Source: Flavobacterium difficile | GTDB taxonomy: Bacteria; Bacteroidota; Bacteroidia; Flavobacteriales; Flavobacteriaceae | DNA: 64,000 bases | Direction: 5' to 3' | Assembly: GCF_011392115.1 (NCBI RefSeq) | Contig: NZ_JAAJBT010000002.1 | Location: 558,001 to 622,000, forward strand | Shown here: piece after piece, positions 1,279-23,581 of the stretch | Layout: each line of letters begins with the position of its first letter | Position numbering within the stretch: position 1 is the stretch's first letter | Notes under the pieces: generated by a model | Told to the model about the DNA's origin: nothing | Databases searched by the model: none | Seen by the model: the letters and a program-made list of their open reading frames with translations, nothing else | Program-made: the position numbers and the translations under genes

Positions 1279-1731
1279 TACTTTTTTCAAAATCATCCAC
1301 AACAAAATAATTTGGTATCTTTCTGTTTGGAAAACTATTTCATCGGAAACATTGCTATTAATAAAAAACTTTAAAGTGCAATCGCCTTTTTTTGGTCTTT
1401 AACTAACTATTAACGAGTGTAGTTCATAAAATGAATATAAGTTATGATGCCAATGAAATTAAGTTTGCTAATCAATCAATAAGTCGCCAATGGAAAATAC
1501 GTTAATACTAACTTTCACTTTCTTATAGAACTAGAATAAATGAAGTAATAACAATCAAATGAAACTTTTTCATACCTTTTTTTAAATATTCTATGACATT
1601 AATTTGATGCATACAATTATATATTACTAATTTTAACTTGTGTTTGTTTTTACAATACACACATGAATAAGTACCAACCCTATTAAAAAAAACACTAAAA
1701 CAAAAAAAAACACTAAAACAATAAAACCCGA
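1279..1731. other. AT-rich gap before the accessory block
   Basis: 453 bp without a convincing gene. It contains a direct repeat of AAAAAACACTAAAACA immediately before the next gene (about 1685-1722) and a segment around 1597-1665 that loosely resembles 6875-6956 in front of another accessory gene (shared ATTAATTTGA, then TTGTGT and ACACA pairs). No GTTAGC-type end is seen here, so the first accessory gene cannot be called a complete cassette. Confidence 0.5.
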
Positions 1732-3195
1732 ATGAAAAAAATAATTTTTATAATTTTAACTAGTTTGACATTTCAAGCCAATGCTCAAAATTTATTTCCA
1801 ATTAAATTAGATAACTGTAAAACTGATAAATTTTGTCTTGACTGTGGTGATGTCAAAGCAGGATATGACGAAAAGGAGTTTTTGAAACTACAAGAAAAAC
1901 TAAACCAAGAATTAAACCTACAAGGTATTAAAGGTTCAGTTAAGTTTCAGATACTTGTTGATTCAAAAGGACGAGCTTGTGTATTGAGTCATACAGACCA
2001 ATCTAAAAATCCAATTTCGTTACAAATTATAGAAGCGCTGAACAATTTTAGAAAATGGACCCCAGCCATTACTGGAGGTAAAAAGGAGGAAAAATCATCA
2101 ATCAATATGATTTTTTCAATAAATGAGAACAAAATAATTGGAAATATTGAACGTGTGGATATGACTGCTTTTAAGAGATCATTTGATAAACCTAACAGTC
2201 CTGAAATATTCAATAAAACCTATCTTTATAAAAATGAAAATCTAAATACATATAAAATAACTGTTTGGAATACTAAAAACTCAAATCTTCCAAATAATAT
2301 GAATGATCACATTGCAATTGACAAAAATGGATTAATTTGGTTAACAATCGATGAAGGTTTGGTGACTTTTGACGGTAAAATTTTTAAAAATGCGGAGCAA
2401 AATATTACTGATAAAGGAAATTTCTTTTCGTATTATGCGATTGCATCAGATAATAATAATGTCAAATGGGTTTATGGAAAAAAAAATATCTATAGTTTTG
2501 ACAATTCCAAATGGACCAAATACGATGCAAATGAGATAGGTATAGATGGCGTGTATGAAATAGTAAATAATATAAAAACAGGCGAAGTATTTTTTTGTTC
2601 CGATGAAGGATTAACAATTTATAAAGAGGGAAAATGGTCAAATATTAATAAAAATAAAGTAAAAGAATTTCCTTCAAACCGAGTAACTTTTGCTAAAAGA
2701 GATTCGAAGAACAGAATTTGGATAGGAACTTTCAGCGGAACTGTAATGATAGATGAAAATGGAAAGGCGACAAATTTTGAACATACTCAAACTGTTTTAA
2801 AAGGCAAATGTATTACTTCTATGGATGAAGATGAAAATGGGAATCTTTATTTTTCTCTTTATGAATTTGATAGAAAAGAAAAAGGAAAAGTAAATAATAA
2901 TGAAGGAATTGCAATTGGCTATGCAGACGGAACTTTTAAACAATTTACAACTGAAAATTCTGGAATGCCATTTAATCATACCAATTGTGTTGTTTATGAT
3001 AAAAAGGAGAAAGTTCTTTGGATTTCTACTGACAGAGCTGGTTTAATACGATATGACCTTAAAGATGGTTGGGAAAATTATCATAATGAAAATTCAGAAA
3101 TTCCTACTTCTTATATTTCTACGATGACTATGGATGACAATGGAAACTTATATTTAGCCACAAGACAAGGATTAGTTAAAATTGAAAAAAAATAA
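1732..3195 (+). CDS. Secreted protein: TonB C-terminal-like domain plus beta-propeller
   Basis: 487 residues with a signal peptide (residues 1-18, cut after FQANA). Residues about 55-140 resemble a TonB C-terminal domain (GSVKFQILVDSKGRA, then a hydrophobic pattern ending before the propeller). From about 190 to the end, repeated blades carry the W-x-x-T/S-x-x-G-[LI] signature of 'two component regulator' propellers, for example IWIGTFSGTVMID and LWISTDRAGLIRYD. It has no membrane segment or kinase, so it is a free periplasmic or secreted propeller. The first palindromic repeat starts 8 bp behind its stop codon. Function unknown. Confidence 0.85.
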   Translation: MKKIIFIILTSLTFQANAQNLFPIKLDNCKTDKFCLDCGDVKAGYDEKEFLKLQEKLNQELNLQGIKGSVKFQILVDSKGRACVLSHTDQSKNPISLQIIEALNNFRKWTPAITGGKKEEKSSINMIFSINENKIIGNIERVDMTAFKRSFDKPNSPEIFNKTYLYKNENLNTYKITVWNTKNSNLPNNMNDHIAIDKNGLIWLTIDEGLVTFDGKIFKNAEQNITDKGNFFSYYAIASDNNNVKWVYGKKNIYSFDNSKWTKYDANEIGIDGVYEIVNNIKTGEVFFCSDEGLTIYKEGKWSNINKNKVKEFPSNRVTFAKRDSKNRIWIGTFSGTVMIDENGKATNFEHTQTVLKGKCITSMDEDENGNLYFSLYEFDRKEKGKVNNNEGIAIGYADGTFKQFTTENSGMPFNHTNCVVYDKKEKVLWISTDRAGLIRYDLKDGWENYHNENSEIPTSYISTMTMDDNGNLYLATRQGLVKIEKK

Positions 3196-3202
3196 AGCTA
3201 CT

Positions 3203-3331
3203 GCTAACAGCGTTTGTCAAGATTGCGAATTTTGTAGTAAAAACACGTTTACGTTTCGCAAGAAATTTTATCTTTGATAGAAAATACCCGGTTCCGAAGT
3301 TCGCAACCTCGCCAAGCGCCGGAACGTTAGC
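3203..3331 (+). repeat. attC-like repeat, family A, copy 1
   Basis: 129 bp from GCTAAC to GTTAGC. The left arm (3203-3229) and right arm (3300-3331) pair as an imperfect palindrome ending in TTGCGAA/TTCGCAA. Most mismatches are of the G-T wobble type, and the right arm carries extra bases next to GTTAGC. The middle holds TATCTTTG at 3269-3276. It lies directly between a stop codon and the next gene on the same strand. Confidence 0.85.
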
Positions 3332-3376
3332 TGCAAGCTGAAAAACTTTGCGTAAAACACAATAAATTTTATATAA

Positions 3377-3931
3377 ATGCAATTATTAAAACTATCAACC
3401 TTTATTATATTTATTTACTCTATTTTTAGTTTTGAAAAAGTTAAATGTAATGATGATGATCAAATATTGTGGAAAAGTGAAAGAAAATTAGTTTGGGATG
3501 ATTTTAAGGGAATTGCTGATACAAGTATGATAAATGTTGAGGCGATAACGAGTTATAAAATTGAAGTTACTGATGCGTATTTTGAAAACGATATTCCAAA
3601 ATATCAACTTTCTTGCTATTTTATCAAAAGTAAATCTTGGACTATTACAAATGAAAAAAAAACATTAGATCATGAACAATTACATTTTGACATTGCAGAA
3701 ATTTACGCGAGGAAAATTAGAAAAGCATTTGATAGCCTAAACTTTAAAAAATGTGTTGATACAAATAAATATGATGAAATTTATTATCGACTTGGAGATG
3801 AATGTGAAATCTATCAAGACAAATATGATAATTCTGTATATTTTAATGAAGTTCAGCAAAAAAAATGGTCAATAAAAGTTAATGCTGAATTGGAGAGATT
3901 AAAAAAATATGCATATGAACCGAATGAATAA
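3377..3931 (+). CDS. DUF922-like putative Zn protease
   Basis: 184 residues with an N-terminal hydrophobic segment (about 1-19) that may be a signal peptide or anchor. The block KLVWDDFKG and the motif DHEQLHFDIAEIYARKI (HExxH at residues 99-103) match the DUF922 pattern, a family suspected to be zinc-dependent proteases from its HExxH. This is the clearest functional hint in the accessory block. The gene is a single-gene unit between family A copies 1 and 2; the repeat end is 45 bp before the ATG. Activity is inferred from the motif only. Confidence 0.82.
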   Translation: MQLLKLSTFIIFIYSIFSFEKVKCNDDDQILWKSERKLVWDDFKGIADTSMINVEAITSYKIEVTDAYFENDIPKYQLSCYFIKSKSWTITNEKKTLDHEQLHFDIAEIYARKIRKAFDSLNFKKCVDTNKYDEIYYRLGDECEIYQDKYDNSVYFNEVQQKKWSIKVNAELERLKKYAYEPNE

Positions 3932-3946
3932 ACTAAAAAGCCAGCA

Positions 3947-4076
3947 GCTAACAGGCGTTTGTCAAGATTGCGAATTTTGTAGTAAATTCACGTTCATTTT
4001 TCGCAATAAATTTTATCTTTGATAGAAAATAATCGGTTCCGAAGTTCGCAACCTCGCCAAGCGCCGGAACGTTGGC
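3947..4076 (+). repeat. attC-like repeat, family A, copy 2
   Basis: 130 bp from GCTAAC to GTTGGC, highly similar to copy 1 over its length, including both arms and the internal TATCTTTG (4014-4021). It starts 15 bp behind the stop codon of the DUF922-like gene and ends 27 bp before the next ATG. Confidence 0.85.
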
Positions 4077-4103
4077 AGTAAGTTTCAGACAAAACTAGAA
4101 TAA

Positions 4104-4541
4104 ATGACCAAAATTGGAAAACTTAAATTCGGACATTATTACGGAATAATCTTTGTTTCATTTCTTTGCTTTATATTCATTCGTAGTTATGTAATTGAAA
4201 AAGATATTGAGAAAAGCAAAACCGAAATAGTCGCAAAATTTGTTAGAAAGGATAAATCTGTAAAAACTACAGCATTCTATTTTGGATTTTATTATCAAGG
4301 CAAATACTTTGAAACTTGTGGCTCTGGAATAAGTTACTCAATGTTTAATTCAAACAAAGAAACTAATATGATTGACAGTTTAAAAATTAACCATTTCTAT
4401 TACGCAAAATTTGACCCAATTCACAAAGACAATATAATTGTAAATCCTTCAGAAGAAATTACAGATTCGACAAAAATAACAAATGCTGGATTTGAATATA
4501 ATATTAAAAAACCTACTGCTAACAGCGGTTTGGCACAATAG
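4104..4541 (+). CDS. Small membrane-anchored protein of unknown function
   Basis: 145 residues with one membrane segment near the N-terminus (about residues 11-28) followed by a hydrophilic domain. I do not recognise a family, though the layout resembles small DUF3592-like proteins. The reading frame runs into the downstream repeat: the last eight residues (TANSGLAQ) and the stop codon are encoded by family B copy 1. That is also common for genes in integron cassettes, where the attC site supplies the C-terminus. Confidence 0.78.
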   Translation: MTKIGKLKFGHYYGIIFVSFLCFIFIRSYVIEKDIEKSKTEIVAKFVRKDKSVKTTAFYFGFYYQGKYFETCGSGISYSMFNSNKETNMIDSLKINHFYYAKFDPIHKDNIIVNPSEEITDSTKITNAGFEYNIKKPTANSGLAQ

Positions 4542-4652
4542 CTATTTTATCCTTAATAGAACGTTCGATTTTCCGCTGGAAAATCTTATATTAGCAAGAA
4601 ATAATCGTTTTACGCAGTAGCTACTGCGCCAAGCCGCGGAACGAACGTTGCA
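4518..4652 (+). repeat. attC-like repeat, family B, copy 1
   Basis: About 135 bp from GCTAAC to GTTGCA. The outer arms pair (GCGGTTTGGC with GCCAAGCCGC, then AATAGCTA with TAGCTACT) with mainly G-T type mismatches. The middle contains a perfect 8-bp hairpin, GATTTTCC-gct-GGAAAATC (4567-4585). The core differs from family A, but the ends and placement are the same. Confidence 0.85.
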
Positions 4653-4684
4653 GCAATAGGCTCAGACGTTTACAAACAAGAAAT

Positions 4685-5143
4685 ATGGAAGTTAAAGAAA
4701 TAGAATTCTCGAAATTACGACATGCTTACATTACTGTTAAAACTTTTTTAGAAACTGAGTCATGGGATAAAGTAAAATCACTTGACACAAAAATTGAAAA
4801 AGACCTTGGACTTGCTGGTGATGATAATGCAGAAATGCTTGAAAAGTTTGTAAAAAAGTTTGAGTTAGAAAATAAAAACTTTGATTACATTAAACATTTT
4901 TTGTCTGAAGGAGAGTTATTTAATATGAGTTCGTCATTATCTACTTTGCTCACATTGTCCATTTGGATTCCATTAAAAACAATTGAACTTATTACATTCA
5001 ATTCAGTTAAAATAGAAAAGCCAAATTTTAATAATTATCCTGAACGAGACGATCTTACTTTTAAAGAAATGATTACATGGTATATCGAAAAAGATTATGT
5101 TTCCACTGATAATGTTAAATATAAAATTAAAGCAGAAATATAA
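4685..5143 (+). CDS. Hypothetical soluble protein
   Basis: 152 residues, acidic and mostly helical, without signal peptide, membrane segment or metal motif. I do not recognise it. It begins MEVKEIEFSKLRHAYITVK and has a central stretch with several SLSTLLTLS-type hydrophobic residues. It sits alone between family B copies 1 and 2, on the same strand as its neighbours, 32 bp behind the repeat end. The codon use is AT-rich like the rest of the block. Confidence 0.75.
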   Translation: MEVKEIEFSKLRHAYITVKTFLETESWDKVKSLDTKIEKDLGLAGDDNAEMLEKFVKKFELENKNFDYIKHFLSEGELFNMSSSLSTLLTLSIWIPLKTIELITFNSVKIEKPNFNNYPERDDLTFKEMITWYIEKDYVSTDNVKYKIKAEI

Positions 5144-5172
5144 TCGAGATATTTATTGTTTAGCCGACATCT

Positions 5173-5305
5173 GCTAAAAGCGGTTTGACTCAATAGCTAC
5201 TTTTGTCCTTAGGAACAACGTTCGATTTTCCGCTGGAAAATCTTATCCTAGCAAGAAAAAAACGTTTCAAGCATCCGCTACTGCGCCAAGCCGCAGAACG
5301 TTAGT
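5173..5305 (+). repeat. attC-like repeat, family B, copy 2
   Basis: 133 bp from GCTAAA (the usual AAC is AAA here) to GTTAGT. It is closely similar to family B copy 1 and keeps the internal 8-bp hairpin (5224-5242) and the pairing outer arms. It starts about 29 bp behind a stop codon. Confidence 0.83.
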
Positions 5306-5388
5306 GGCAACACTGCCAAAATTGCGCAGAAATAACATTGTCATAACAATAGATTACTTTATTTGAAATCATTTTAAAACAACAAAGT

Positions 5389-5934
5389 ATGAAAAAAATA
5401 CTTATACTATTAGCATTAACCCTTACTTTATCTTGTTGCAACAAAGACGACAATCCATCTTCATCTAACGACCAACTACCACCTGAAACCCAAACAGGAG
5501 CTAATACCGTAGGTTGTTTAGTGAACGGAAAAGTATTTTTACCACATCAAGAAGGTATAAACCCTGCTGTAAACTGCTTTTATCAATTGTATAATGGTGA
5601 ATATTTTTTCACAATGAATTTTGCAGATTTAAGAGGAACAGGGGTCAAGGCAGTTGTAATACAAACAAGTAGAATAAATTTAGAAGAAGGTCAAATATAC
5701 CTATTAAATAAAAATATAATTGAAGATGGTGATTTCTCGGGGGGGGGGCAATATTATATTTCTTCAATTTTATCAAATAATTTTTATACAAATACTATAA
5801 AAACAGGTGAACTAAAAATCACTCGATTAGATATATCAAATTCTATTATTTCAGGAACTTTCTGGTTTGATGCTGTCAATACAGCAGGAGAAACTGTAGA
5901 AATAAGAAGTGGTCGTTTTGACTGGAACTATTAA
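5389..5934 (+). CDS. Lipoprotein (DUF6252-like) with an internal poly-G tract
   Basis: 181 residues with a lipoprotein signal (TLTLSC, modified Cys at residue 16). The body, with VGCLVNGKVFLPH near the start and many Tyr/Asn-rich strands, resembles small flavobacterial lipoproteins of the DUF6252 type; this match is tentative. Codons 117-120 lie in a run of ten G (5739-5748), very unusual in this AT-rich sequence; gain or loss of one G would truncate the last third. As written, the frame is intact. The next repeat (6003) is damaged. Confidence 0.8.
   Translation: MKKILILLALTLTLSCCNKDDNPSSSNDQLPPETQTGANTVGCLVNGKVFLPHQEGINPAVNCFYQLYNGEYFFTMNFADLRGTGVKAVVIQTSRINLEEGQIYLLNKNIIEDGDFSGGGQYYISSILSNNFYTNTIKTGELKITRLDISNSIISGTFWFDAVNTAGETVEIRSGRFDWNY
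5739..5748 (+). repeat. Ten-base poly-G tract inside a lipoprotein gene
   Basis: G10 in a stretch that is otherwise strongly AT-rich, located inside the open frame at codons 117-120. Homopolymer tracts of this length slip during replication and are the usual switch of phase-variable surface genes in other bacteria. Confidence 0.9.
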
Positions 5935-6002
5935 TTATGAAAATGAAATAAAAAACACTTTCACTCAATGGGACGAAAATGGAAACCTAATAAAATAACT
6001 TC

Positions 6003-6105
6003 GGCCAACACACGTTTTGCGCTATTGCGAATTTTGTAGTAAAAACACGTTTATGTTTCGCTAGTACTATTATCTTTGATAAGAAATAATCAGTTTATTT
6101 ATGGA
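6003..6105 (+). repeat. attC-like repeat, family A, damaged copy
   Basis: The left part (GGCCAAC, then TTGCGAATTTTGTAGTAAAA and TATCTTTG at 6071-6078) matches family A, but the right arm with GCCAAGCGCC and GTTAGC is missing; the match fades after about 6105. Just before it (5942-5998) lies a short open fragment ending in TQWDENGNLIK and a stop, which may be the tail of a lost gene. Confidence 0.75.
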
Positions 6106-6140
6106 CATTTAATCAAGTATCATATAACAAACAATAAAAT

Positions 6141-6656
6141 ATGAAAAAAATACTAATTTTATTTTTTCTATTTTCTCAAGTTTCTTTTGGACAGAACGTA
6201 TATTTCAATATCCTAAAAGAAAAAACAGAAAGAGATGATTCTGGCATTATAACTCTTTATTTGGAAATCATTAATGAATCTGAAAATGATGTTATTATGC
6301 TTAAACCAGCAAATGATTATCGCCAAAAATTTATGCATTATTATTTTGATCTGTTGAAATGTGATGAGGCTGTGTATTTTGATTATTCTACAAATAGATT
6401 TAAAATTTTCGAATATGTGAATGATGATTTACTAAAATTAAAATCTAAATCTAAAGAAATAGTTAAAATAAGATATTGGAGTATTCACGATATATTAGCT
6501 TGTGATGCATCTGAATTTGAAGTTAAAATAAGTTATGAAATTGATCAAAAATTAACTTATTTCAAAGAAGGCTTAACTGAGAGTGAAGCAAAAATATATA
6601 ATTGTTTGACTTCAATTAAAATAGAAAGTTTACCCACTTTAATTACAATGAAATAA
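6141..6656 (+). CDS. Secreted hypothetical protein
   Basis: 171 residues with a clear signal peptide (residues 1-18, ending VSFGQ). The mature part looks like an all-beta domain (alternating hydrophobic residues, ITLYLEIINESENDVIML), similar in shape to immunoglobulin-like folds, but I recognise no family. Because the repeat in front of it is damaged, it may now form one unit with the preceding lipoprotein gene. Confidence 0.77.
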   Translation: MKKILILFFLFSQVSFGQNVYFNILKEKTERDDSGIITLYLEIINESENDVIMLKPANDYRQKFMHYYFDLLKCDEAVYFDYSTNRFKIFEYVNDDLLKLKSKSKEIVKIRYWSIHDILACDASEFEVKISYEIDQKLTYFKEGLTESEAKIYNCLTSIKIESLPTLITMK

Positions 6657-6973
6657 AATACCACCAACTACAACAGTTTTTTTATAGTTACTATTTTTTC
6701 AATATTAAATTCAATTTTCAATTGTTAAACATTATTTATAAATACAGTTTTGATTTTTTGTTTTTAATAATAGTACTAAATAAACCATTCAAGAAATTTG
6801 TAAAACTATAAATACTTTAGGTTAGCATATAAAATTTAAAAATGTAATACTTAGTTACAAATATTTATGGTTTCATGCCATTAATTTGAGTTGTTTATAC
6901 CAAATTATTATATTTGAATTTTGTATGTGTAATTTGTGTATTTCGCACATACACAAGTTAGCAGTAATTTAAA
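6657..6973. other. AT-rich gap with a hairpin ending in GTTAGC
   Basis: 317 bp without a gene. At 6934-6956 there is a perfect 8-bp hairpin (TTGTGTAT, 7-nt loop, ATACACAA) directly followed by GTTAGCAG at 6957. That is the same right-hand end as the family A and B repeats, so this may be the remaining right end of a third, degenerate repeat family. No matching left end was found. Confidence 0.5.
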
Positions 6974-7435
6974 ATGAGTAAACAAATCTACATATCAACT
7001 ATTTTCTTAATTATATTATCAATTTCCTGTTCAACTAATAAAGGGTTAATTGAAAAAAGGAAAACGGAATTTGGTATTACTAAATATTATATTGAGAAAG
7101 ACTTGAAAAATAACAAATACAAAGAAAGACTATTAGCAACGATAGATAATTCTGTTTATTATAGTATCTATTCTGACAAAATTGTCAAACAAACAAAAAA
7201 AAACAAACAATTAATTTATACATTATTCTTCGATAATATTCCTGAAAATTTGAATGACACCAAATATTATCAGAATTTGACTAAAATGGATTCTATAGTA
7301 TTAACTGAAAGTAACAAAATATTGAACTCTTTAAATTTGCAGAATTTTAAAAAATGGAATGGAGCGAAAGCATTTATAATCGAAGTAAATTATTATCACG
7401 GATATCCGAAAAACAGAAAATTTAAACCGTATTAA
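6974..7435 (+). CDS. Hypothetical lipoprotein
   Basis: 153 residues with a lipoprotein signal (LSISC, Cys at residue 19). The mature part is Lys/Asn/Tyr-rich without recognised motifs. It starts 11 bp after a GTTAGC end and is followed after 14 bp by a complete family A repeat, so it fits the one-gene-per-unit pattern. Function unknown. Confidence 0.77.
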   Translation: MSKQIYISTIFLIILSISCSTNKGLIEKRKTEFGITKYYIEKDLKNNKYKERLLATIDNSVYYSIYSDKIVKQTKKNKQLIYTLFFDNIPENLNDTKYYQNLTKMDSIVLTESNKILNSLNLQNFKKWNGAKAFIIEVNYYHGYPKNRKFKPY

Positions 7436-7449
7436 AATAAAAAACTACT

Positions 7450-7577
7450 GCTAACAGGCGTTTGGCAAGACTGTGAATTTTGTAGTAAAAACACCTTTAT
7501 ATCTCAAGAAATTTTATCTTTGATAGAAAATAATCGGTTCCGAAGCTCGAAACCTCGCCAAGCGCCGGAACGTTAGC
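7450..7577 (+). repeat. attC-like repeat, family A, copy 3
   Basis: 128 bp from GCTAAC to GTTAGC, complete, with both arms and the internal TATCTTTG (7515-7522). It sits 14 bp behind one stop codon and 57 bp before the preferred ATG of the next gene. Confidence 0.85.
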
Positions 7578-7634
7578 CACAAGTTGAAAAACGAGACGGA
7601 AAATCACTTACAAAATACTAAACGAAAGAATAAA

Positions 7635-7991
7635 ATGTGTAGAGATTGTTTTGATAAACAATATTATGGTTTTGCTTCTCTAACGGAATTTGAAAAGTTT
7701 GAGGAAGTTTTAGACTTAAAATGCAAGTCTGAAAAAATTAAAATATTGGAATCTAAAAACGAGTTTGAAAGTGGGCTAATTGATTTCAGAATGTATTATA
7801 AATGTAACACTTGCAAAGAAAAGTTTGTAGTGTCAATTCCCGATAATGCATGGAGAGGATATTTCTTAACAGAACCTAATGCAATTGAATATCATGAGAA
7901 GATAAAAACTTCAGACAAAAAGAAAAAAAATGGCTGTGTAATAATTATAATTTTGATATTTTTTTTCGCAATTTACTCAATATTAAAATAA
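7635..7991 (+). CDS. Small protein with two CxxC pairs and a C-terminal membrane anchor
   Basis: 118 residues from the ATG at 7635. An in-frame TTG at 7584 would add 17 residues but lies only 6 bp behind the repeat end, so the ATG after GAAAGAATAAA is preferred. Cys pairs at residues 2/5 (CRDC) and 57/60 (CNTC) suggest a zinc-ribbon-like fold, and the last 20 residues (CVIIIILIFFFAIYSILK) form a membrane tail. No known family recognised. The first Cys pair is right at the N-terminus. Confidence 0.75.
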   Translation: MCRDCFDKQYYGFASLTEFEKFEEVLDLKCKSEKIKILESKNEFESGLIDFRMYYKCNTCKEKFVVSIPDNAWRGYFLTEPNAIEYHEKIKTSDKKKKNGCVIIIILIFFFAIYSILK

Positions 7992-7998
7992 AACCGTC

Positions 7999-8080
7999 GC
8001 ACAACAGGCGTTTGGCAAGATTGCGAATTTTGTAGTAAATTCAAGTTTATTTCTCAAGAAATTTTTATTTTTTAAATGAA
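7999..8080 (+). repeat. attC-like repeat, family A, truncated last copy
   Basis: It begins GCACAAC-AGGCG-TTTGGCAAGATTGCG and follows family A for about 75 bp, then diverges before the TATCTTTG box. A GTTAGCAG motif at 8198-8205 may be its displaced right end after an insertion or rearrangement. This marks the right boundary of the repeat block. Confidence 0.7.
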
Positions 8081-8406
8081 AAATCTTTTTCTCAGATCAC
8101 AAACTATTATTAAGCTAAGCTAATTTATATTAAAAAACATTCATGAGCTTTAATTCAAAACCTAACAAGCATGTTAATTCTAAGCTAAAATTGATACGTT
8201 AGCAGAATTTAAACCTTCAGATAAAAGCAATGGATTCTCAATTTTTTAAATAGTTATAATTAATACCAAACATCCTCAAATTATAAAACATTACAATTAG
8301 GTTTAATTTCGCAATGGAATTATAATGTTTAATTCTTTGAGAAATCATAACTTTTTTTGTTTTATTAATTAAGATTAACCTATTAGTTGTAAAGTTTTCA
8401 AAACTT
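8081..8406. other. Gap after the accessory block
   Basis: No gene seen. It contains GTTAGCAG at 8198 and several AAGCTAA/TTAGCTT-like partial inverted repeats (about 8115-8205). The rest is plain AT-rich sequence. Confidence 0.4.
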
Positions 8407-23368: not shown

Positions 23369-23581
23369 TTTTTTACTGACAAGTTATATTAGCCTTTTAG
23401 GTTCGTAAAATTTTAAGACTTACTGTCTATTATAGCCCTGATAGTAGTGGCATCCTTTTTATTTGTAATGTCTTTTTTTTCGGAGGCAATACAAATAAAA
23501 AGATAGAACGGATAGCAGGACCAAATGTGTTATGCAACCGAATTTTTCTGCTTCTACCTCCAAAAATAGCGAAAATTATAG

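Follow-up and report, generated by a model that had tools for sequence, protein, structure and literature searches.

Can a row of small same-strand genes separated by pairing repeats, found in a genome of Flavobacterium difficile, be understood as an integron cassette cluster, and which recombinase would then serve it? The question is raised by a stretch of 64,000 nucleotides (hereafter the window; C2:558001–622000, on contig C2 of a draft assembly that comprises 33 contigs and 2.95 Mb), in which an initial annotation had proposed a block of cassette genes divided by attC-like repeats and lacking an integrase. We find it highly probable, on comparative grounds, that the window holds a detached cassette cluster, and that the likely recombinase of the system is encoded on another contig, C8. 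This enzyme lacks the additional domain (the patch) of the integron integrases (IntI) and is predicted to act on the attC-like repeats, cutting and rejoining cassettes at G^TT when their bottom strand is folded.

The window cluster consists of seven attC-like repeats on the plus strand, between positions 3206 and 8110, interleaved with seven open reading frames (ORFs) of that same strand (3377–7991). The left ends of the repeats, with the triplet AAC, lie at 3206, 3950, 4521, 5176 (mutated to AAA), 6007, 7453 and 8003, and the right ends, with GTT, at 3326, 4071, 4647, 5300 and 7572. The seven repeat units of the initial annotation are thus present in number and not in completeness, as five are full length and those at 6007 and 8003 are truncated, their right arms gone; its two core families were recovered, the sites at 4521 and 5176 having one core in common. 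Clusters of attC sites lacking integron integrases (CALIN) are recognized by at least two attC sites with no integron integrase nearby, and the window offers seven sites, attC-like by fold, and no integrase. It was rightly called CALIN-like, and most likely represents cassettes of an integron-like system that have become detached and have partly decayed.

Sequences matching the window repeats occur in at least 40 places of the genome (40 of 100 candidates scored), namely 36 on C8, three on C2 and one on C6. The 36 C8 matches (C8:8581–43958) share one orientation, and the array there comprises 42 cassettes of 347–3149 bp each, measured from GTT to AAC, directly 3' of an intact tyrosine recombinase gene (C8:44569–45684) that is co-oriented with the cassettes. 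Within the genus, the 122-bp repeat of the second window site was found in 143 of 299 genomes, and recurrence on this scale greatly exceeds what chance would give. The proposal of attC-like repeats between same-strand genes is therefore upheld by the window, by the genome and by the genus, and the further copies that it anticipated are provided by the main array on C8 and by remnants on C6. The window lacks an integrase only locally, given the recombinase and 42-cassette array on C8; a tblastn search of the window with the C8 integrase returned nothing significant. On C6, a small remnant cluster (C6:169000–178000, L021) contains an attC-like copy of full length and one or more fragments of such copies, together with further repeats of ~200 bp.

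In an integron, the circular form of a cassette brings its two ends together as the R box, and the arms of a site within an array come from two different cassettes; the two ends of one cassette are therefore expected to be complementary. Within the C8 array, both ends of a cassette agreed at a mean of 9.67 of 11 variable positions (n = 42), compared with 5.07 for the arms of in-array sites (n = 41) and 4.89 for randomly paired ends, whose highest mean over 2,000 permutations was 6.07. At least nine matching positions were seen in 37 of 42 cassettes and in one of 41 in-array sites. Complementarity spans offsets 0–14 from the crossover and stops sharply at offset 15 (46 pairs), with a constant mismatch at offset 10, C.A (G.T in the bottom strand), in 36 of the 42 C8 cassettes. 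In a control set of canonical integrons (16 cassettes from four loci, picked by a match in the first seven positions), end pairing extended to about position 9–10 and the offset-10 C.A was absent; canonical attC sites are described as having 9–11 consecutive complementary nucleotides (PMC2727003). At the level of sequence, end pairing on C8 follows the circular-cassette logic of integrons. A loose chain detector with a threshold of 12/15 was discarded, its shuffled null likewise producing chains of two to six, and a stricter signature was used.

The C8 gene (L019:4569–5684, minus strand) encodes a tyrosine recombinase of 371 aa. The invariant columns of its family alignment include R229, K254, H318, R321, H344 and Y353, which we take to be the catalytic residues, and all are present in the C8 protein. 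It scored 212.5 against the XerA-like model (cut-off 220) and 189.2 against the integron integrase model TIGR02249 (cut-off 265). Its alignment with the IntI4 structure was interrupted at the extra IntI domain, and the spacing from the catalytic Arg to HxxR was 88–96 aa across the family (108 of its 111 members measured), as opposed to 131 aa in the canonical IntI of L122 and L126. Judged by these alignments, the IntI-specific patch insertion is absent from the C8 recombinase. In a quick tree of 80 proteins, in which 7 of 12 canonical IntI and 6 of 15 Xer rows were retained, the seven canonical IntI formed one clade (support 100) with the recombinase family outside it, and six XerC/XerD rows from relatives formed a separate clade; the deep branches were weak. 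By domain content and tree placement, the C8 recombinase stands outside the IntI family as defined. In place of the intI-type integrase that the initial annotation had suggested looking for, a recombinase of another kind was found beside the main array. The predicted structure of the C8 protein (mean predicted local distance difference test score, pLDDT, 78.6; predicted template modelling score, pTM, 0.49) was closest in fold to an integron integrase (2a3v) and then to XerA, and its closest named relatives were integrases in Flavobacterium and 'Flavobacteria bacterium' records. The family carries an N-terminal extension, for which a likeness to the HARP domain was considered; in Pfam, 15 of 20 members matched DUF5710, in each case only weakly.

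Eleven recombinases of a Pseudomonadota clade near the family in the tree (L093, L103, L105, L107, L109, L111–L113, L117, L119 and L120) have no cassette signature, and some of these loci have further blocks in common.

Rebuilt circular sites were folded computationally, as the initial annotation had advised for the bottom strand of each repeat. From 46 pairs, eight with poorly matching ends and three without a usable right end were set aside, and in all 35 remaining sites from C8 and the window the bottom strand was predicted to be the stabler one. The same held for 126 of 137 sites from 42 other loci, which were also selected by matching ends and may include chance pairs. Preselection of this kind favours a good R helix and does not favour a bulge; a one-sided 4-nt bulge at the R/L junction was predicted in 32 of 35 own sites, and a 3–4-nt bulge adjoining the R helix in 96 of 134 other sites. 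A 1 × 1 mismatch was common in own sites (28/35). Among 11 canonical control sites, six had a one-sided spacer of 2–5 nt, seven had single-base bulges and seven had the stabler bottom strand. The computed folds thus reproduce the R and L boxes, the bottom-strand hairpin and the unpaired central spacer of attC sites. A covariance model of canonical attC, built from 17 sites, gave seven weak matches on C8 below threshold (E 0.15–0.96), all on the repeats and all on the bottom strand.

Sequence breaks between copies and between genomes fall where the initial annotation had proposed to look for them, at GTT. The C8 array has three copies of one cassette, ~96% identical and differently flanked, the homology running from the AAC of the preceding site to GTT, and two copies of a second at 98.6% identity. 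Two genomes of different families (G061 and G097) share a 1.3-kb block, 99.2% identical, that begins five bases before a GTT and stops at the next GTT, and F. enshiense shares with G011 a 1.5-kb block (95.9%) running from GTT to the next GTT, with similar site arms beyond. The first cassette behind the integrase is likewise common to genomes of different families (94% for L184/L198, 80% for L184/L190), and in these three loci the homology extends from GTT to just past AAC, the attC cores behind it being different. Between the F. difficile genome and the fetched loci, seven shared blocks of at least 200 bp were found, six corresponding to the integrase gene and one to a 72% block in L209. Together, these comparative breakpoints point to cassette exchange at GTT, with G^TT as the presumed bond.

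Across the phylum, a family member at E < 1e-60 was present in about 120 of 392 genomes by a hand count in which some genes are broken. Self-BLAST for repeats around the integrase flagged just 7 of 110 loci and was replaced by the end-complementarity test. With this test, among the 93 family loci that had 1 kb or more of sequence following the gene (18 of 111 loci had less room and were omitted), 51 showed a signature cassette within 600 bp downstream of the recombinase, compared with 4 of 85 upstream stretches and 2 of 37 loci of other tyrosine recombinases. By subset, the counts were 30/54 in the phylum sample, 18/31 in named records and 3/8 in relatives; the phylum sample was obtained after the rule had been seen on other loci, its 60 loci come from the upper part of a ranked list with many at contig ends skipped, and the loci are related to each other, so that the counts are not independent. 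The signature tracked the N-terminal extension, with 49 of 77 loci for long and 1 of 14 for short N-termini, the start of the one short member with a signature (L202) being probably misjudged by the start-codon rule. Short members with no signature cassette nearby (L210, L211, L213, L223, L225, L227, L229 and L231–L233) possibly belong to a different kind of element.

Signature loci span many Bacteroidota families and include the named records Flavobacterium enshiense, Seonamhaeicola, Winogradskyella, Algibacter, Rufibacter and Algoriphagus, as well as metagenome-assembled genomes labelled Sphingobacteriales, Spirochaetota and Firmicutes (the last with less than 1 kb of room). A plasmid of Chryseobacterium sp. 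SNU WT5 (L278) carries an integrase relative and three signature cassettes, with genes for Crp/Fnr-family, RidA-family, hypothetical and metallophosphoesterase proteins, showing that the system can sit on mobile DNA. In the stretches behind the integrase of 15 loci, picked for a known first cassette, a GTT lies about 60–360 bp from the gene, often with a GTATAT-like motif 5' of it by eye, and a promoter-like TAnnTTTG motif was present in 7 of 16 compared stretches.

On these observations, the system has the architecture of an integron and most likely functions as one. It falls outside the IntI integrons as defined, since the defining domain is absent by alignment and the recombinase belongs to another clade. 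The C8 recombinase likely collects and shuffles cassette genes. Recombination between adjacent sites would release the cassette that they enclose in circular form, the 15-bp R helix restored in this way and the 4-nt one-sided bulge would mark the site, and the circle would be inserted at an attI-like GTT about 60–360 bp behind the integrase gene, where a TAnnTTTG promoter would drive the first cassettes. The N-terminal extension may, as a guess, replace the missing patch. The window cluster, with no recombinase gene of its own, would be served in trans or be decaying.

Several results weigh against this interpretation. Single-base extrahelical bulges are a hallmark of canonical attC sites, and in the computed folds they were scarce (2/35 for own sites, 41/134 for the others), so that the extrahelical L-stem bases of attC are not reproduced. 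In the comparison with an attC covariance model proposed in the initial annotation, the canonical model matched C8 only below threshold, and gave no match in the window and none in three other arrays of this kind (L054, L070 and L073); it is an insensitive model, since it missed some canonical control loci too. The recombinase family as delimited is not one clean clade in the tree (three changes), 42 of the 93 family loci have no signature cassette nearby, and none was found on a second Chryseobacterium plasmid with a relative (L279). The differing attC cores at L184/L198 are not explained by simple cassette transfer. Finally, the patch insertion of IntI is described as essential to integron function (PMC8138268).

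Could the repeats instead be the cassette sites of a conventional IntI integron that has lost its patch-bearing integrase or has it encoded elsewhere, with the XerA-like C8 recombinase as a chance neighbour? The one-sided central bulge is common to own (32/35) and canonical (6/11) sites, C8 weakly matches the canonical attC model, and canonical IntI does occur in the phylum, above the cut-off in 85 of 296 genomes. However, neither F. difficile nor any other member of its genus, family or order is among the 86 of 296 phylum genomes that match the IntI family model at E ≤ 1e-60, and its class contributes only one of them. The position of the patchless family directly 5' of a signature cassette (51/93 loci, versus 4/85 upstream) rejects a chance neighbour, and the end rule, with 15 positions and a constant mismatch, is unlike the canonical pairing of about 9–10. 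We hold this explanation to be very improbable. Still less credence, close to none, is due to the idea that the repeats are non-mobile intergenic hairpins (REP-like or RNA elements), whose complementarity stems from terminators or local duplication. Strong palindromes between same-strand genes would fit it, as would the 13 of 42 C8 cassettes that have no long sense ORF, many of them built of diverged tandem repeats. It is rejected by the complementarity itself, which links the ends of a cassette and not the arms of one repeat; moreover, blocks common to different genomes break at GTT, and across the phylum the repeats adjoin one recombinase family.

A third possibility concerns the window only and is compatible with a detached cluster of an integron-like system, namely that the window cluster is now dead and unusable by any integrase. 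Just three of its units keep ends that obey the cassette rule (3326/3950, 12/15; 4071/4521, 13/15; 6957/7453, 13/15), along with a weaker fourth. Ends do not match at 4647/5176 (4/15), 5300/6007 (7/15) and 7572/8003 (7/15), and two repeats are truncated, one AAC is lost and no integrase was detected beside the attI-like site at 6957. Set against this, sites 3206, 3950 and 7453 remain 89–97% identical to one another or to C8 copies, cassettes 3326–3950 and 6957–7453 retain matching ends, and an intact recombinase exists in the genome. We consider a dead cluster a tentative and rather unlikely assessment of the window.

From its 5' side, the window block begins earlier than the position near 3203 that had been assigned to it, with a likely degenerate first cassette on the plus strand (1501–3206). 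Its ends, GTT at 1501 and AAC at 3206, pair at 11 of 15 positions and show the offset-10 C.A, a degenerate attC-like right arm lies just 5' of 1501 by eye, and its ORF (1732–3195, plus strand) encodes a protein with two-component-regulator-propeller repeats (Pfam Reg_prop). All features that follow are also on the plus strand. Site 1 (3206–3328), of full length, precedes an ORF of 184 aa (3377–3931; cassette 3326–3950) with a weak DUF922 match slightly below the cut-off. Site 2 (3950–4073), the 122-bp repeat of full length, is followed by an ORF of 145 aa (4104–4541; cassette 4071–4521) with no Pfam family, the 3' end of which lies within site 3 (4521–4649). Site 3 is of the second core family, has a few additional bases 5' of its GTT and precedes a DUF1493-like ORF of 152 aa (4685–5143). 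Site 4 (5176–5302), also of the second core family and with its left AAC changed to AAA, is followed by an ORF of 181 aa (5389–5934), DUF6252-like and with an N-terminus resembling a lipoprotein signal by eye. Within this ORF, a run of ten G (5739–5748) may be a slippage-prone or phase-variable tract. Site 5 (6007–6095), without its right arm, precedes an ORF of 171 aa (6141–6656) with no Pfam family.

Position 6957, which had been taken for the right end of a repeat, is instead an isolated GTT, in a possible attI-like relic (6909–6959) where a promoter-like TAnnTTTG motif is followed by this GTT as crossover site. By eye, its surroundings are laid out like the stretch between the C8 integrase stop and the first cassette; blastn found no significant similarity between these two stretches, and tblastn with the C8 integrase found no significant remnant beside 6957. 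The cassette behind it (6957–7453) contains an ORF of 153 aa (6974–7435) with no Pfam family. Full-length site 6 (7453–7574), an ORF of 118 aa from its ATG (7635–7991; alternative TTG start at 7584; no Pfam family) and site 7 (8003–8110), with a degenerate right arm, complete the block. An Rfam scan of the block at the gathering threshold gave no match; elsewhere in the window, a Flavo-1 RNA (RF01705) was found at 23430–23526 (74.9 bits).

In the C8 array, the longest ORF is in sense in 35 of 42 cassettes and is antisense or shorter than 40 aa in 13 of 42. The 13 without a long sense ORF are numbers 9, 11, 14, 15, 26–28, 30 and 32–36 (loci L018 and L017), and many of them belong to one family of ~350–500-bp units with diverged short repeats and several duplications in the array. 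Protein scans covered 35 cassette proteins, from 28 of 36 listed C8 ORFs and the seven window ORFs. Pfam matches were few (17 families, one protein each), and PADLOC matched 16 defence models, each in a single cassette protein.

Among known systems, the F. difficile system resembles sedentary chromosomal integrons such as the Vibrio superintegron in its mostly one-gene cassettes of single orientation, pairing cassette ends and AAC/GTT core, in an AACG followed by a one-sided bulge, and in a long array beside a tyrosine recombinase with breaks at G^TT. It differs from them in that its recombinase has no patch, lies outside the IntI clade, is N-terminally extended and is transcribed in the cassette direction, in an R helix of 15 positions with a constant G.T rather than 9–11 paired nucleotides, and in that single-base extrahelical bulges are mostly absent. 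XerA, XerC and XerD, which act on dif sites, share its catalytic-core sequence and fold and the absence of the patch, but the F. difficile recombinase family lies beside cassette arrays. In integrons with a reverse-oriented intI, typical of Spirochaetota, the integrase also reads toward the array; the passages of PMC9668308 on these enzymes call them IntIs, a family defined by the additional domain. Like a CALIN, the window cluster has several attC-like sites with no recombinase nearby, but its sites belong to a lineage whose recombinase would likely be missed by a patch-based search, so that some of the CALIN-type clusters may be fragments of complete systems.

IntI genes have been chosen by the additional domain or patch (PMC2426708, PMC9668308 and PMC8352920), and IntegronFinder, as outlined in PMC9668308, requires a profile of the IntI additional domain, so the C8 recombinase would likely go unreported. 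According to an integron survey (PMC9024848), Bacteroidetes proper hold one complete integron, in Salinibacter ruber, and Bacteroidota are among the phyla listed with integrons in a passage of PMC8618304. The literature searched, outside which preprints and most subscription papers lie, yielded no account of Bacteroidota integrases that lack the patch and are accompanied by cassette arrays.

An arrangement of xerD, tet(X3) and res has been reported on Acinetobacter plasmids (PMC7494873), and the passages of that report describing it do not term it an integron. On plasmid pHH1107 (L280, 4028–6100), the gene directly 5' of tet(X3) and co-oriented with it is a 5'-truncated relative of the recombinase family (52.6% identity over 228 residues). 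The two genes are separated by a stretch that includes a promoter-like motif and an attI-like GTT, and an attC-like left end follows tet(X3). The ends of the tet(X3) unit match at 11 of 15 positions and include the offset-10 C.A, which is under the signature threshold. These weak end matches suggest, tentatively, that tet(X3) entered as a cassette of such a system.

We think it somewhat more probable than otherwise that Bacteroidota harbor a second integron lineage apart from IntI, whose recombinase is patchless, has an N-terminal domain of its own and reads folded attC-like hairpins with an extended 15-position R helix, and that this lineage is a main gene-capture platform of the class, overlooked because integron searches demand the IntI patch. 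If this is true, cassette gene capture would be common in a phylum where PMC9024848 credits Bacteroidetes proper with one complete integron, and a concrete explanation would be suggested for genes filed as 'xerD' beside cargo genes in Bacteroidota-derived DNA. The patch domain would then be just one of several ways to recombine folded single-stranded sites, and a living intermediate or a parallel case would be at hand for testing whether integrons arose from Xer-like enzymes.

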